Under the pieces are notes generated by a model. That model worked only from the letters and a program-made list of their open reading frames with translations. It made no database searches and had not been told where the DNA came from. A DNA stretch of 54,926 bases from an uncultured Lentisphaeria bacterium (lineage in GTDB: Bacteria; Verrucomicrobiota; Lentisphaeria; Victivallales; UBA1829): contig CASDPB010000084.1 in the NCBI GenBank assembly GCA_949282305.1, forward strand, positions 1-54,926. The letters run 5' to 3'. Of this stretch, positions 43,623-47,716 are shown piece by piece; within the stretch, counting starts at the first letter, position 1, and each line of letters starts with the position of its first letter. The position numbers and the translations under genes were made by a program.

Positions 43623-45761
43623 GTGAACGATTCCGACTGCCGGTTTCTGGCGAAGGAACTTGATTTGCCGGAAAACCGGGTACGCAGAGTCGCCGCTCTG
43701 TTTGAGGATGGCGCGACGGTGCCGTTTATTGCACGCTACCGCAAAGAGGCGTCGGGCGGAATGGACGAGGTCGTTTTGCTTCGTCTGCACGAAGCGATGG
43801 AAGCGCTTCGCAAAGTGAATGAGCGGCGCGGCAGTATGCTGGAGTCGCTCCGGGAGCGGAATCTGCTTACGGAAGCGCTTGCCGCCAGGCTCAATTCCGC
43901 GCATACTCTGACCATGCTTGAGGATCTTTATCTGCCTTACAAGGTCAAACGGAAGACACGTGCCTCCGCCGCGCGGGAGAAAGGGCTGGAACCGCTCGCA
44001 AGACTTCTCTATGAACAGCGGGTTTTTCCGATCGACCTGCGATCCGCTGCCGTGAAAATGAGCAGAGAGGAGGCTTTGGCGGGAGCGTCCGACATCATTG
44101 CGGAGTGGATCAGCGAAGACCTTGAAATACGCACCCGTCTGCGCGAACTTTTCGCGCGCCGTGCGCTGTTTGTCTCGAAAGCTGTCAAATCCAGGGCGGA
44201 CGAAGCGGAGGCGCAGGTCTTCCGCGGCTATTTCGACTACTCCGAACCGTTTCCGCGGGTTCCTTCCCATCGTGCGCTGGCTGTCATGCGCGGTGCCGGG
44301 AAAGGATTTCTGACGATTCAGCTCCGCCCGCCGAAGGAGGAGGCGCTGCGGATTCTCTGCCGCATGGTGATCCGCAATCCCCGGTTTCCGTATCGGAAAT
44401 TCCTGGAGCAGACTTCGGAGGATGCCTATGCCCGGCTGATTCTGCCGTCGCTGGAGAACGAATTTCTGAACCGTCTGAAAGCCCGTGCGGATGCGGATGC
44501 GATTCAGGTCTTTGCAAAGAACCTGCGCAGTCTGCTGCTGGAGCCGCCGCTGGGTGCCCGGCGCGTCCTCTCTTTCGATCCCGGCTTCCGCACCGGCTGC
44601 AAAACAACGGTTCTGGATTCGGACGGCAGTCTTCTGGAGCATCTCGTCATTTTTCCGGAGCGTCCCGATTCCGGCGAAACCGTGAAGAGACTTGCCGAAA
44701 AGTATCGGATTGAGGCGGTGGCAGTCGGCAGCGGAACCGCGGGGCGTGAAACCGAAGCGTTTTTGAGGAAGATTCTGCCGCCGGAACTGCCGATTGTCAG
44801 CGTCAATGAGAGCGGGGCTTCGATCTATTCCGCGGGCGAAGCGGCACGGCGGGAATTTCCGGACCTGGATTTGACTTTCCGCAGTTCCGTATCCATCGGG
44901 CGCCGCCTTCAGGACCCGCTTTCCGAACTGATCAAGATTGATGCAAAGTCCATCGGAGTGGGGCAGTATCAGCATGACGTCGATCAGGGTGCATTGAAGG
45001 AGTCTCTGGACAATGTTGTGGCAAGCTGTGTGAATCTGGTCGGCGTCGAGCTCAACAGCGCCGGCATGGAACTCCTTGCCCGTGTATCGGGGCTTACGGA
45101 ACGTCTCGCGCGGAATATCATTGACTACCGCGCGGAACACGGAATGTTCTCCTCCCGCGCCGAACTTCTGAACGTAAAGGGGCTGGGGCCGAAGGCATAC
45201 AGGCAATGCGCCGGATTCCTGCGCATCCGGGGGGCGGAAAATCCGCTGGACGCAAGCGGCGTTCATCCCGAACGTTATGAAATCGTGAATGACATGGCGA
45301 AAGCGAACGGGTGGACCGTGCAGGAGCTCATGCGCCGGTGTGCCGCCGGATTCCGCCCCGATATGAAGCCGTATTTCACCGAGGACGTCGGACTGCCCAC
45401 ACTGGAGGACATTCTTTCCGAACTTGCCAAGCCGGGGCGTGATCCGCGGGAGGATTTCCAGGTCTTCTCCTTTGCCGAACATGTCCATACGATTGACGAT
45501 CTGGTGCCGGGCATGAAACTTAACGGGATCGTGACGAATGTGACGAAGTTCGGTGCATTCGTCGACATCGGAGTCCATCAGGACGGTCTGCTTCATGTCA
45601 GCCGCATGGCGGACCACCGCATCGCCGATCCCTCCGAGATCGTGTCTGTTCATGATCGCCTTGAAGTCACCGTCATTGAAGTGGACCGCGCACGCCGCCG
45701 GATCGCGCTCTCATTGACGGATATGCAAAAAAATCTCCCGAAAGAGAAAAGGGGGATTTGA
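43623..45761 (+). CDS. tex: Tex family RNA-binding transcription accessory protein
   Basis: A 712-residue Tex/YhgF protein. The N-terminal helices include TVPFIARYRKEASGGMDEVV and LEDLYLPYKVKRKTRASAAR. A YqgF/RNase H-like domain follows (RVLSFDPGFRTGCKTTVLDS). Helix-hairpin-helix motifs are at GVGQYQHDVDQ and ARNIIDYRAEHGMFSSRAEL, and the C-terminal S1 domain is GMKLNGIVTNVTKFGAFVDI and on. It binds RNA or nucleic acid in transcription; the molecular job is not settled. Start GTG 43623 follows GGAGGG. The stop codon overlaps the ilvB promoter. Confidence 0.95.
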   Translation: MNDSDCRFLAKELDLPENRVRRVAALFEDGATVPFIARYRKEASGGMDEVVLLRLHEAMEALRKVNERRGSMLESLRERNLLTEALAARLNSAHTLTMLEDLYLPYKVKRKTRASAAREKGLEPLARLLYEQRVFPIDLRSAAVKMSREEALAGASDIIAEWISEDLEIRTRLRELFARRALFVSKAVKSRADEAEAQVFRGYFDYSEPFPRVPSHRALAVMRGAGKGFLTIQLRPPKEEALRILCRMVIRNPRFPYRKFLEQTSEDAYARLILPSLENEFLNRLKARADADAIQVFAKNLRSLLLEPPLGARRVLSFDPGFRTGCKTTVLDSDGSLLEHLVIFPERPDSGETVKRLAEKYRIEAVAVGSGTAGRETEAFLRKILPPELPIVSVNESGASIYSAGEAARREFPDLDLTFRSSVSIGRRLQDPLSELIKIDAKSIGVGQYQHDVDQGALKESLDNVVASCVNLVGVELNSAGMELLARVSGLTERLARNIIDYRAEHGMFSSRAELLNVKGLGPKAYRQCAGFLRIRGAENPLDASGVHPERYEIVNDMAKANGWTVQELMRRCAAGFRPDMKPYFTEDVGLPTLEDILSELAKPGRDPREDFQVFSFAEHVHTIDDLVPGMKLNGIVTNVTKFGAFVDIGVHQDGLLHVSRMADHRIADPSEIVSVHDRLEVTVIEVDRARRRIALSLTDMQKNLPKEKRGI

Positions 45762-45785
45762 CAAAAAAGTGATTTGCTTTATATT
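45758..45785 (+). promoter_or_regulatory. strong promoter of the ilvB leader
   Basis: TTGACA (45758-45763) and TATATT (45780-45785) are 16 bp apart. The -35 box overlaps the tex stop codon. The expected start near 45792 is 4 bases before the leader-peptide ATG. Confidence 0.75.
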
Positions 45786-45795
45786 ATCCCTCATT

Positions 45796-45876
45796 ATGGA
45801 CAACAGGATCAGACACATCTTTTTGACTCGCAGGGCAGTCGTCGTTATCAGCCCGTCCGCAGACACCTCCCGGTAA
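45796..45876 (+). CDS. possible branched-chain amino acid leader peptide upstream of ilvB
   Basis: A 26-codon frame starting ATG 45796 and ending TAA 45874-45876. The peptide begins MDNRIRHIFLTRR and continues AVVVISPSADTSR: a run of Val-Val-Val-Ile codons (GTC GTC GTT ATC at about 45838-45849), two other Ile codons and one Leu codon, much as in ilv and leu leader peptides. It lies right after a strong promoter and before hairpins. No Shine-Dalgarno precedes it; the message would be leaderless. Its role is inferred from position and composition. Confidence 0.55.
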   Translation: MDNRIRHIFLTRRAVVVISPSADTSR

Positions 45877-45923
45877 TGCGGGCGGGGTTCGTTTTCCGCG
45901 TTTTCGCAAAACGCTTTCCGGGA
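45852..45923 (+). promoter_or_regulatory. putative transcription attenuator upstream of ilvB
   Basis: CCCGTCCGCA (45852-45861) pairs with TGCGGGCGGG (45877-45886) with one G-U, and the leader stop codon lies in its loop. A second hairpin GCGTTTT-CGC-AAAACGC (45898-45914) follows. TCCCGG at 45868-45873 can instead pair with CCGGGA at 45918-45923, giving an alternative fold. T tracts are short and interrupted, so terminator strength is uncertain. Confidence 0.5.
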
Positions 45924-46006
45924 CTTCCCGTTCAGAATTCCGCAGACGGGAGAAATTGGTTTCCAGCATTTGATTCGGGCAATGAAAAAGAAAGTGAACT
46001 GAAGTT

Positions 46007-47716
46007 ATGAAAAACAATATGATACCGGAAAAATCCCTGCTCAACGGAGCACAGATTGCAATCAGGACTCTGGAACGCCTCGGAGTCAAGACCTGTTTCG
46101 CCTATCCCGGCGGTTCCGCAGTCGATTTTCACCAGGCGCTCGCGGATTCCGGCATTCAGGTGGTTCTGCCGCGCCACGAACAGGGCGGCGCATTCGCCGC
46201 AAACGGTTACGCCAGGGCGACCGGTCAGGTCGGAGTCTGCATGGCGACCAGCGGTCCCGGAGCAACCAACCTGCTGACGGGAATTGCGGACGCCTATATG
46301 GATTCCATTCCGGTTGTGGTTATTACCGGACAGGTCGAAACATGGTACATCGGGAAGAATGCGTTTCAGGAGACCGATATTATCGGCATGACGCGCCCGA
46401 TTGTCAAACACAGTTATCTTGTGCTGGACCCTGCCGAGATCAGTTCCACCATCGTCAACGCATTTGAACTGGCGCGCAGCGGCAGACCCGGTCCCGTCTG
46501 GATTGACATTCCGAAGAATATTCAGAAAATGACGCTGGAATTTCAGTTCGACCCGGTTCCGACTCTGCACAGGAGACCGCTTCACCGGTGTGCCGCGTTT
46601 GCGGAGCTGGAACAGATCAGACATGCGCTGGCAAAATCGCAGCGCCCCTGCATCTATGCCGGCGGCGGAATCATTTCCGGCGGCGCCTCCGGGGAACTGC
46701 TCCGTTTTGCCGAGGCATACAACATCCCCGTGGCGACCTCTCTAATGGGGATCGGCGCATTTCCGGAAACGCATCCGCTCTCTCTGAAATATCTCGGCAT
46801 GCACGGCACCTATTATGCCAACTATGCAGCGGATCAGTGTGATCTTCTGCTTGCGCTCGGAGCGCGTTTCGCGGATCGTTCCACCGGCAATGCGAAGGAA
46901 TTTGCACGCGACGCTTTCATCGTCCATATCGACGTCGATGAGTCGGAGATCAATAAGAATGTCCATGCCGACATCGGAATTGCCGCCGATGTCCGGGAGG
47001 TTCTGCATGAACTGAACAAAGAACCGCTTTTCCTCCCGAGACAGGAATGGATGGAGACGATCCGGCGATGGAAGACCGAACATCCTCTGGCATATCACCC
47101 TGTGCCGGACAAGCTGAAGCCGCAGCAGGTCATTGAGACTCTTTACCGTATGACGGACGGCAATGCCGTCATTGTTCCCGGCGTGGGACAGCATCAGATG
47201 TGGGCAGCGCAGTTCTATCAGTACACCCGTCCGCGCCAGCTGCTCACATCCGGCGGACTCGGAACCATGGGGTTCGGGCTGCCTGCCGCGATGGGCGCCA
47301 AGCTGGCTCTGCCGGATGAACTGGTCATCAATATTGACGGCGACGGCTCTTTTCAGATGAATATTCAGGAACTCGGCACGATTGCCGCGGAGGAGATCGG
47401 CGTGAAAATGATTATCCTGAACAATCAGCATCTCGGCATGGTGGCGCAGATCGAGGACCTGTTCTACCGGGGAAAGCGGGGCAACACGGATCTGCGCACG
47501 AAAGAGGATAAACCGTTCCCGCACTTCGTCGGCATCGCAAACTCATACGAGATTCCGGCGCGCGATGTGTTTTCCGCGGACGAGCTCGAAGATGCGATCC
47601 GTGAAATGCTGGAGACGCCCGGTCCGTTCCTCCTGGACTGCCATACGGTTTATCAGGATCACGTGCTGCCGATGATTCCCGGCGGAAAATCCTGCAGGGA
47701 CATGATTACGGAGTGA
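46007..47716 (+). CDS. ilvB: acetolactate synthase large subunit
   Basis: Thiamine-diphosphate enzyme of 569 residues that condenses two pyruvates, or pyruvate with 2-ketobutyrate, in valine, leucine and isoleucine synthesis. The catalytic Glu58 is in RHEQGG and the ThDP motif is GDGSFQMNIQEL with NN at 472-473. FAD-loop and oxyanion motifs include ATSGPGATNLL. Where most enzymes have the Trp of the herbicide pocket (NQHLGMVxQW), this one has Ile482 (GMVAQIEDLFY). No regulatory subunit (ilvN) follows; a hairpin and an unrelated regulator do. It lies 130 bp after the putative attenuator. Other members of the ThDP decarboxylase family are less likely. Confidence 0.9.
   Translation: MKNNMIPEKSLLNGAQIAIRTLERLGVKTCFAYPGGSAVDFHQALADSGIQVVLPRHEQGGAFAANGYARATGQVGVCMATSGPGATNLLTGIADAYMDSIPVVVITGQVETWYIGKNAFQETDIIGMTRPIVKHSYLVLDPAEISSTIVNAFELARSGRPGPVWIDIPKNIQKMTLEFQFDPVPTLHRRPLHRCAAFAELEQIRHALAKSQRPCIYAGGGIISGGASGELLRFAEAYNIPVATSLMGIGAFPETHPLSLKYLGMHGTYYANYAADQCDLLLALGARFADRSTGNAKEFARDAFIVHIDVDESEINKNVHADIGIAADVREVLHELNKEPLFLPRQEWMETIRRWKTEHPLAYHPVPDKLKPQQVIETLYRMTDGNAVIVPGVGQHQMWAAQFYQYTRPRQLLTSGGLGTMGFGLPAAMGAKLALPDELVINIDGDGSFQMNIQELGTIAAEEIGVKMIILNNQHLGMVAQIEDLFYRGKRGNTDLRTKEDKPFPHFVGIANSYEIPARDVFSADELEDAIREMLETPGPFLLDCHTVYQDHVLPMIPGGKSCRDMITE

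Follow-up and report, generated by a model that had tools for sequence, protein, structure and literature searches.

How the expression of ilvB is adjusted to the supply of valine is the question raised by a short region in the DNA analysed here, a stretch of 54,926 nucleotides from an uncultured Lentisphaeria bacterium, referred to below as the window; all its features described here lie on the forward (+) strand. The gene itself (46007-47716) encodes the large subunit of a biosynthetic acetolactate synthase, the first enzyme of valine synthesis. It scores 698.7 bits against TIGR00118 (cut-off 538.35), the PDB relatives of its product are acetolactate synthases, and its nearest named relatives are mostly from Verrucomicrobia, with 52-54% identity. 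An earlier note, made from the letters alone, had proposed an attenuator of the ilv/leu type in front of this gene. The proposal is supported in part: relatives share the frame, its Val codons and the hairpin, but the window contains no recognisable intrinsic terminator, and termination rests on relatives. The preferred reading, with a probability of about 0.7, is that the region is a valine-sensing leader that would control ilvB by ribosome-mediated attenuation via Val-tRNA on a leaderless message. Such an RNA switch would most likely turn ilvB on when charged valine-tRNA runs short.

Promoter and Start of the Message

The leader promoter (45758-45785) is composed of TTGACA at 45758-45763, a 16-nt spacer and TATATT at 45780-45785, exact to the base as first described. 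It matches 11 of the 12 consensus positions, against 0.3 promoter-like matches expected in shuffles of the region. An alternative -10 box, TATTAT, is present at 45782-45787, and the promoter and the stop codon of the preceding S1-domain gene (43623-45761) overlap. Since TATATT ends 10 nt ahead of the leader ATG at 45796, the transcript should start 0-4 nt before this codon, at about 45792-45796, which would put the ATG at the 5' end or no more than about 4 nt from it. No Shine-Dalgarno (SD) site precedes the leader ATG, the duplex energy being +2.2 kcal/mol, and the absence of a ribosome site reported earlier is thereby confirmed.

The claim that the message is leaderless applies to part of the family. 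A distance of 9-11 nt from the -10 box to the ATG is found in the window (G000) and, of its eight type-A relatives (type A being the ilvB type of the window), in G186, G187 and G189, whereas most other relatives have 23-48 nt, often with an SD-like site. On the basis of these spacings, leaderless translation of the leader is probably a trait of the window's subclade.

Leader Frame and Its Conservation

The predicted leader peptide, MDNRIRHIFLTRRAVVVISPSADTSR, is encoded by a frame of 26 codons (45796-45876) that ends with TAA at 45874-45876, and homologous frames occupy the equivalent site before ilvB in relatives. The four consecutive Val/Ile codons previously pointed out are present at 45838-45849 as GTC GTC GTT ATC (Val-Val-Val-Ile), so that clustered codons for the end product stand in a short frame ahead of a TIGR00118 gene, as an attenuator requires. 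The conservation of such a frame was assessed with 41 leaders from the ilvB upstream regions of the whole order, defined by the core Val-x-Val-x-x-Pro, or by Val-x-Val where the stop follows the Val codons; in each of them a GC hairpin comes next. The core Val-x-Val is conserved with synonymous change: the first Val is encoded by GTC in 20 leaders, GTT in 19 and GTA in 2, and the second by GTA in 19, GTT in 12, GTG in 9 and GTC in 1. Both positions vary synonymously and are therefore taken to be selected as codons.

For a control test, a looser definition was used, which requires Val-x-Val in the frame and, 2-9 nt further on, a GC hairpin. It was positive at 48 of the 114 ilvB loci of the class; the opposite strand gave 1 of 114, and dinucleotide shuffles gave 10 of 1140 (0.9%). 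Because of this difference, the combination of frame and hairpin is not attributed to chance, and by this comparison the Val-rich frame before ilvB is real. The conservation in related genomes that the earlier note had named as a check was thus found at the level of both the order and the class.

The window leader, used as a DNA query against the class, gave matches immediately ahead of other ilvB genes, the best one in G186, which belongs to another family (76% over 87 bases, E = 1.3e-9). The ilvB of G186 is also the closest relative of the window's gene, with 76% identity, and its leader reads MDISFDSFLTAVVVVVSCPSASTSR. With the G186 leader as a new DNA query, no additional matches were returned. 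Judged from these sequences, the leader is conserved across at least two bacterial orders. No leader of this type stands before ilvC in the family to which the window's genome belongs, and the element therefore goes with ilvB. As a further carrier, leuA was discarded, TIGR00973 being found in 0 of the 36 genomes of the family at E 1e-100.

Hairpin 1

Folding and the type-A alignment define a hairpin whose 5' arm, strand A (CCCGTCCGCA, 45852-45861), begins 2 nt past the ATC codon, and whose 3' arm, strand B (TGCGGGCGGG, 45877-45886), directly follows the TAA. The leader stop is consequently placed between the loop and the 3' arm. The stem has 10 bp and a stability of -24.1 kcal/mol (z = -2.8), and strand A lies where stalling on the control codons would bring it under the ribosome. 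In the alignment of nine type-A leaders, 92.9% of cells are paired and two pairs show two-sided change, while sliding the partner strand lowers the pairing to 29-43%. The covarying hairpin that had been suggested as a further check in relatives is therefore present. The geometry is not uniform, as in the genus-level paralogue (G000b, G001-G003) the stop falls beyond hairpin 1. The possibility that hairpin 1 is itself the terminator was ruled out, as no U-tract directly follows it in the window or in most relatives.

In one set of relatives, at L130 (G182), L123 (G183), L148 (G185), L117 (G196), L180 (G131) and L125 (G122), the bases immediately preceding the Val codons can form a long-range pairing of 8-12 bp with a U-rich strand that lies about 20 nt beyond hairpin 1. 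In G183 it joins ACGGAAAAACUG with CAGUUUUUCUGU, and singly the p values are 0.007-0.04; the pairing is also present in G105 and G112. As an element of the window this pairing was rejected (p = 0.87).

Candidate Competing Strands and Terminator

Downstream of strand A, three further strands come into consideration. Strand P (CUCCCGG, 45867-45873) forms the 3' end of the hairpin-1 loop, abuts the leader stop and, by homology to the second order discussed below, is a candidate antiterminator strand. Strand Q (CCGGGA, 45918-45923) is its candidate partner in the pairing test; alternatively, it may form CGGG-ACUU-CCCG with strand R (CCCG, 45927-45930), which would complete a Q:R hairpin whose G186 counterpart is a terminator. 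A second small hairpin, GCGTTTT-CGC-AAAACGC, is predicted by folding at 45898-45914. The alternative hairpins said to overlap the leader stop are thus recovered in so far as P can also pair with Q, but neither in the window (p = 0.24) nor in most single type-A members does this pairing exceed chance. Changed counterparts of P and Q occur in relatives, namely UCUCAG with CUGAGA (G032-G034) and AUCUCG with CGAGAU (G035). Minimum free energy folding with a blocked ribosome footprint was dropped as evidence, as long-range folds dominate and the two states are not separated.

The Q:R stem of the window has 4 bp, a stability of -5.9 kcal/mol and no U-tract. Between the leader frame and ilvB, two scans and the inspection of Q:R revealed no canonical intrinsic terminator, while intrinsic terminators are present in G186, G054, G056, G061, G094, G052, G095, G053, G110, G112 and G113. 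In G186, the P:Q pairing is significant (p = 0.008), and Q:R takes the form CGGGAA-UUUCC-UUCCCG followed by CUUUUUCC (-7.6 kcal/mol, z -2.6), a moderate terminator that is missed by a simple terminator scan. Because of the negative scans and the weak Q:R stem, termination in the window copy, by Q:R or a weak equivalent, is inferred from relatives, and the last step may be a different one. With no such terminator in the window, its copy is not classed as a proven classical attenuator; comparison places it in a family of homologous leaders that probably act in the manner of an attenuator.

The Second Order and More Distant Carriers

In a second order of the class, homologous leaders precede ilvB, for example LVIVGSPAAVAVG, VVIVGSPAAAAVG and LVLVAGPAAAAVG, and at ten loci they are followed by terminators consisting of a hairpin and a U-tract. 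The terminator of G061 is GCGCCATC...GATGGCGC TTTTTTTT, and that of G054 is GCGCCCTCGCCG...CGGCGAGGGCGC TTTT. Strand P extends here from between the hairpin-1 arms into the 3' arm and can pair with the 5' arm of the terminator. Covariation was evaluated in an alignment of eight sequences. In the terminator helix, 6 of 10 pairs have changed on both sides, a value reached by 0 of 500 shuffles; in the antiterminator P:Q this applies to 5 of 13 pairs (6 of 500 shuffles), with an unexceptional overall covariation score (54 of 500). The energies of the P:Q duplexes beat shuffles with a combined p = 0.002 over 12 loci, these being terminator-bearing loci with hand-picked strands. As the sets are small and related, the covariation counts are supportive, not final. 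Comparison in the second order thus establishes a predicted terminator and, more weakly, a competing antiterminator.

A leader rich in Val and Ile, MLKNVTLTVILVVAVVGSDAVGVS, also precedes ilvB on a contig named Verrucomicrobia subdivision 3 (L017:2751-2900), where it is followed by a terminator with the stem CCCACGGC/GCTGTGGG and six T. The mechanism therefore appears to be wider than the window's genome.

Proposed Mechanism

Sequence and comparison establish the promoter, the frame, the conserved Val codons and hairpin 1 as predicted elements of the window, and the following sequence of events would connect them. RNA polymerase would start at about 45792-45796, leaving the leader ATG at the 5' end of the message or a few bases from it, and the leader would be translated without a ribosome site, as a leaderless message. 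With ample charged Val-tRNA, the ribosome would pass Val-Val-Val-Ile and reach the UAA, where it would cover strand P, or would be released and allow hairpin 1 (A:B) to form. In either case P would be kept from Q, Q would pair with R, and transcription of ilvB would be cut short. When Val-tRNA is short, the ribosome would presumably stall on the Val codons and cover strand A. Strand P would then be free to pair with Q, the Q:R hairpin would not form, and the polymerase would enter ilvB.

Alternative Explanations

The weakest point of the attenuation scheme is its last step. The frame, the Val codons and hairpin 1 have been kept, while the window and many relatives show no detectable U-tract terminator, a combination that would also be expected if the Val codons and hairpin 1 sensed Val-tRNA and the intrinsic terminator had been lost, with Rho-dependent termination, RNA stability or ilvB translation as the output. 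A parallel is offered by mycobacterial cys operons, which have conserved leader peptides without obvious terminators and for which Rho has been suggested (PMC1262725). This explanation is considered unlikely, however, as G186, the closest relative, carries a plausible terminator at the corresponding site, strong terminators are found in the second order, and the analysis identified neither a sequestered ilvB start nor a Rho site. A related reading, still doubtful though somewhat easier to accept, assumes a class-wide, so far undescribed ilvB leader family whose hallmarks are the peptide core V-x-V-x-x-P(-A) and, immediately behind the Val codons, a GC hairpin. Within it, the window lineage would have become leaderless and would have exchanged the canonical terminator for one of these non-canonical outputs.

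It is also conceivable that the attenuator has decayed, the leader having been inherited with this ilvB copy but no longer responding, with the hairpin left as a relic. The window gene is the second, single-gene ilvB copy of its genome, the other copy has its own leader, and no terminator was found in the window copy. Such a relic should nevertheless have drifted, whereas the leader shares 76% of its bases with that of a genome from another family, its frame, Val codons and stop position are intact, and its hairpin is compensated, which makes decay quite improbable. Less probable still, and hardly to be expected, is that the inverted repeat at 45852-45886 is a DNA operator for a repressor, with an incidental Val-rich frame. 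The repeat is perfect-looking over 10 bp and lies just downstream of the promoter, but the Val codons are in frame, have free third bases and keep a fixed distance from the repeat in the 41 leaders; the repeat changes its sequence with compensation, and terminators follow in the second order. Ribosome-mediated attenuation thus remains the preferred reading.

Relation to Known Systems

Leader-peptide control of ilvB is known in proteobacteria. In E. coli, ivbL is, like the window frame, a Val-rich leader peptide before ilvB; ivbL and the proteobacterial ilv/leu leaders are SD-led and have a strong terminator. Such switches are well known in other bacteria, but the open-access literature yielded no description of an ilvB leader of this kind in the window's group, which fits the earlier statement that no described case was known in this phylum. 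No covariance-model match in Rfam (release 15) was obtained for the window or its relatives, and permissive thresholds gave no relevant match.

One of the closest parallels is the Corynebacterium ilvBNC attenuator (ilvB-II motif), in which a short frame rich in branched-chain codons precedes ilvB (PMC10272879, PMC11857589) and three hairpins act as anti-antiterminator, antiterminator and terminator, a scheme supported by mutation (PMC11857589). The window shares the type of frame, and its model follows the same three-hairpin logic. It belongs to another phylum, however, and no sequence relation was found; the window family is distinguished by the core V-x-V-x-x-P and a GC hairpin that follows closely on the Val codons, and the window copy by having no recognisable terminator. 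In C. diphtheriae, transcription of the ilvB leader, MNIIRLVVITTRRLP, begins at the start codon of the leader itself, which makes the message leaderless (PMC5784534), as is predicted for the window. In M. tuberculosis, the ilvB1 attenuator has four regulatory codons (LVVI), and ribosome masking decides between antiterminator and terminator, as tested by codon replacement and terminator removal (PMC13236596); its 166-nt leader has a proven intrinsic terminator, whereas none was found in the window. For the ilvB-OMG and Leptospira ilvB motifs, uORFs with branched-chain codons before ilvB, the latter with three consecutive Val codons, attenuation has been proposed, not tested (PMC10272879); neither the window nor its relatives match them in Rfam, although the Rfam null may not cover these motifs. 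The Sinorhizobium meliloti trpL leader peptide belongs to an attenuator whose message starts with ATG and can act as a leaderless mRNA (PMC7298713); the type of start is alike, but the amino acid is tryptophan, and gene and structure differ.

The leader family would carry attenuation by leader peptides, for which proteobacteria and actinobacteria are the best-studied cases, into a deep-branching group whose nearest named relatives are Verrucomicrobia, with comparative evidence that reaches covarying base pairs. Occurring with strong, weak or no terminators, and SD-led or leaderless, the leader shows how an attenuator changes over time. The regulation of branched-chain amino acid synthesis becomes testable in bacteria for which few genetic tools exist, and an RNA model made from the family could serve to annotate further genomes.

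Genome Context and Further Acetolactate Synthase Genes

The other ilvB of the window's genome (L007, C93:25144-26853) has 64% identity to the window's gene and a VVV leader. The gene after it is, judged by eye, a BioF-like 8-amino-7-oxononanoate synthase and not ilvN, as also in G002, G032, G033 and G035; the ilvN of this genome is found on another contig (C53). Within the family (G006-G010, G019-G031), searches detected neither ilvB nor ilvC in genera g4, g5 and g9, and, taken with the absence of leuA matches in the 36 genomes, branched-chain amino acid synthesis may have been lost.

On a contig labelled Gemmatimonadota (L009), ilvB follows a Val-rich frame that ends in GRVVVLVPM, with a terminator-like stem and nine consecutive T. 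L182 (G155), L183 (G011) and L185 (G188) carry acetolactate synthase genes of a second type that is only distantly related to the window's (42-44% identity). This type has a very long leader rich in Ile and Val, for example VVVSVAAVIIIAIIISVIIITPPGMV, and in G188 and G011 a clear intrinsic terminator comes after it.
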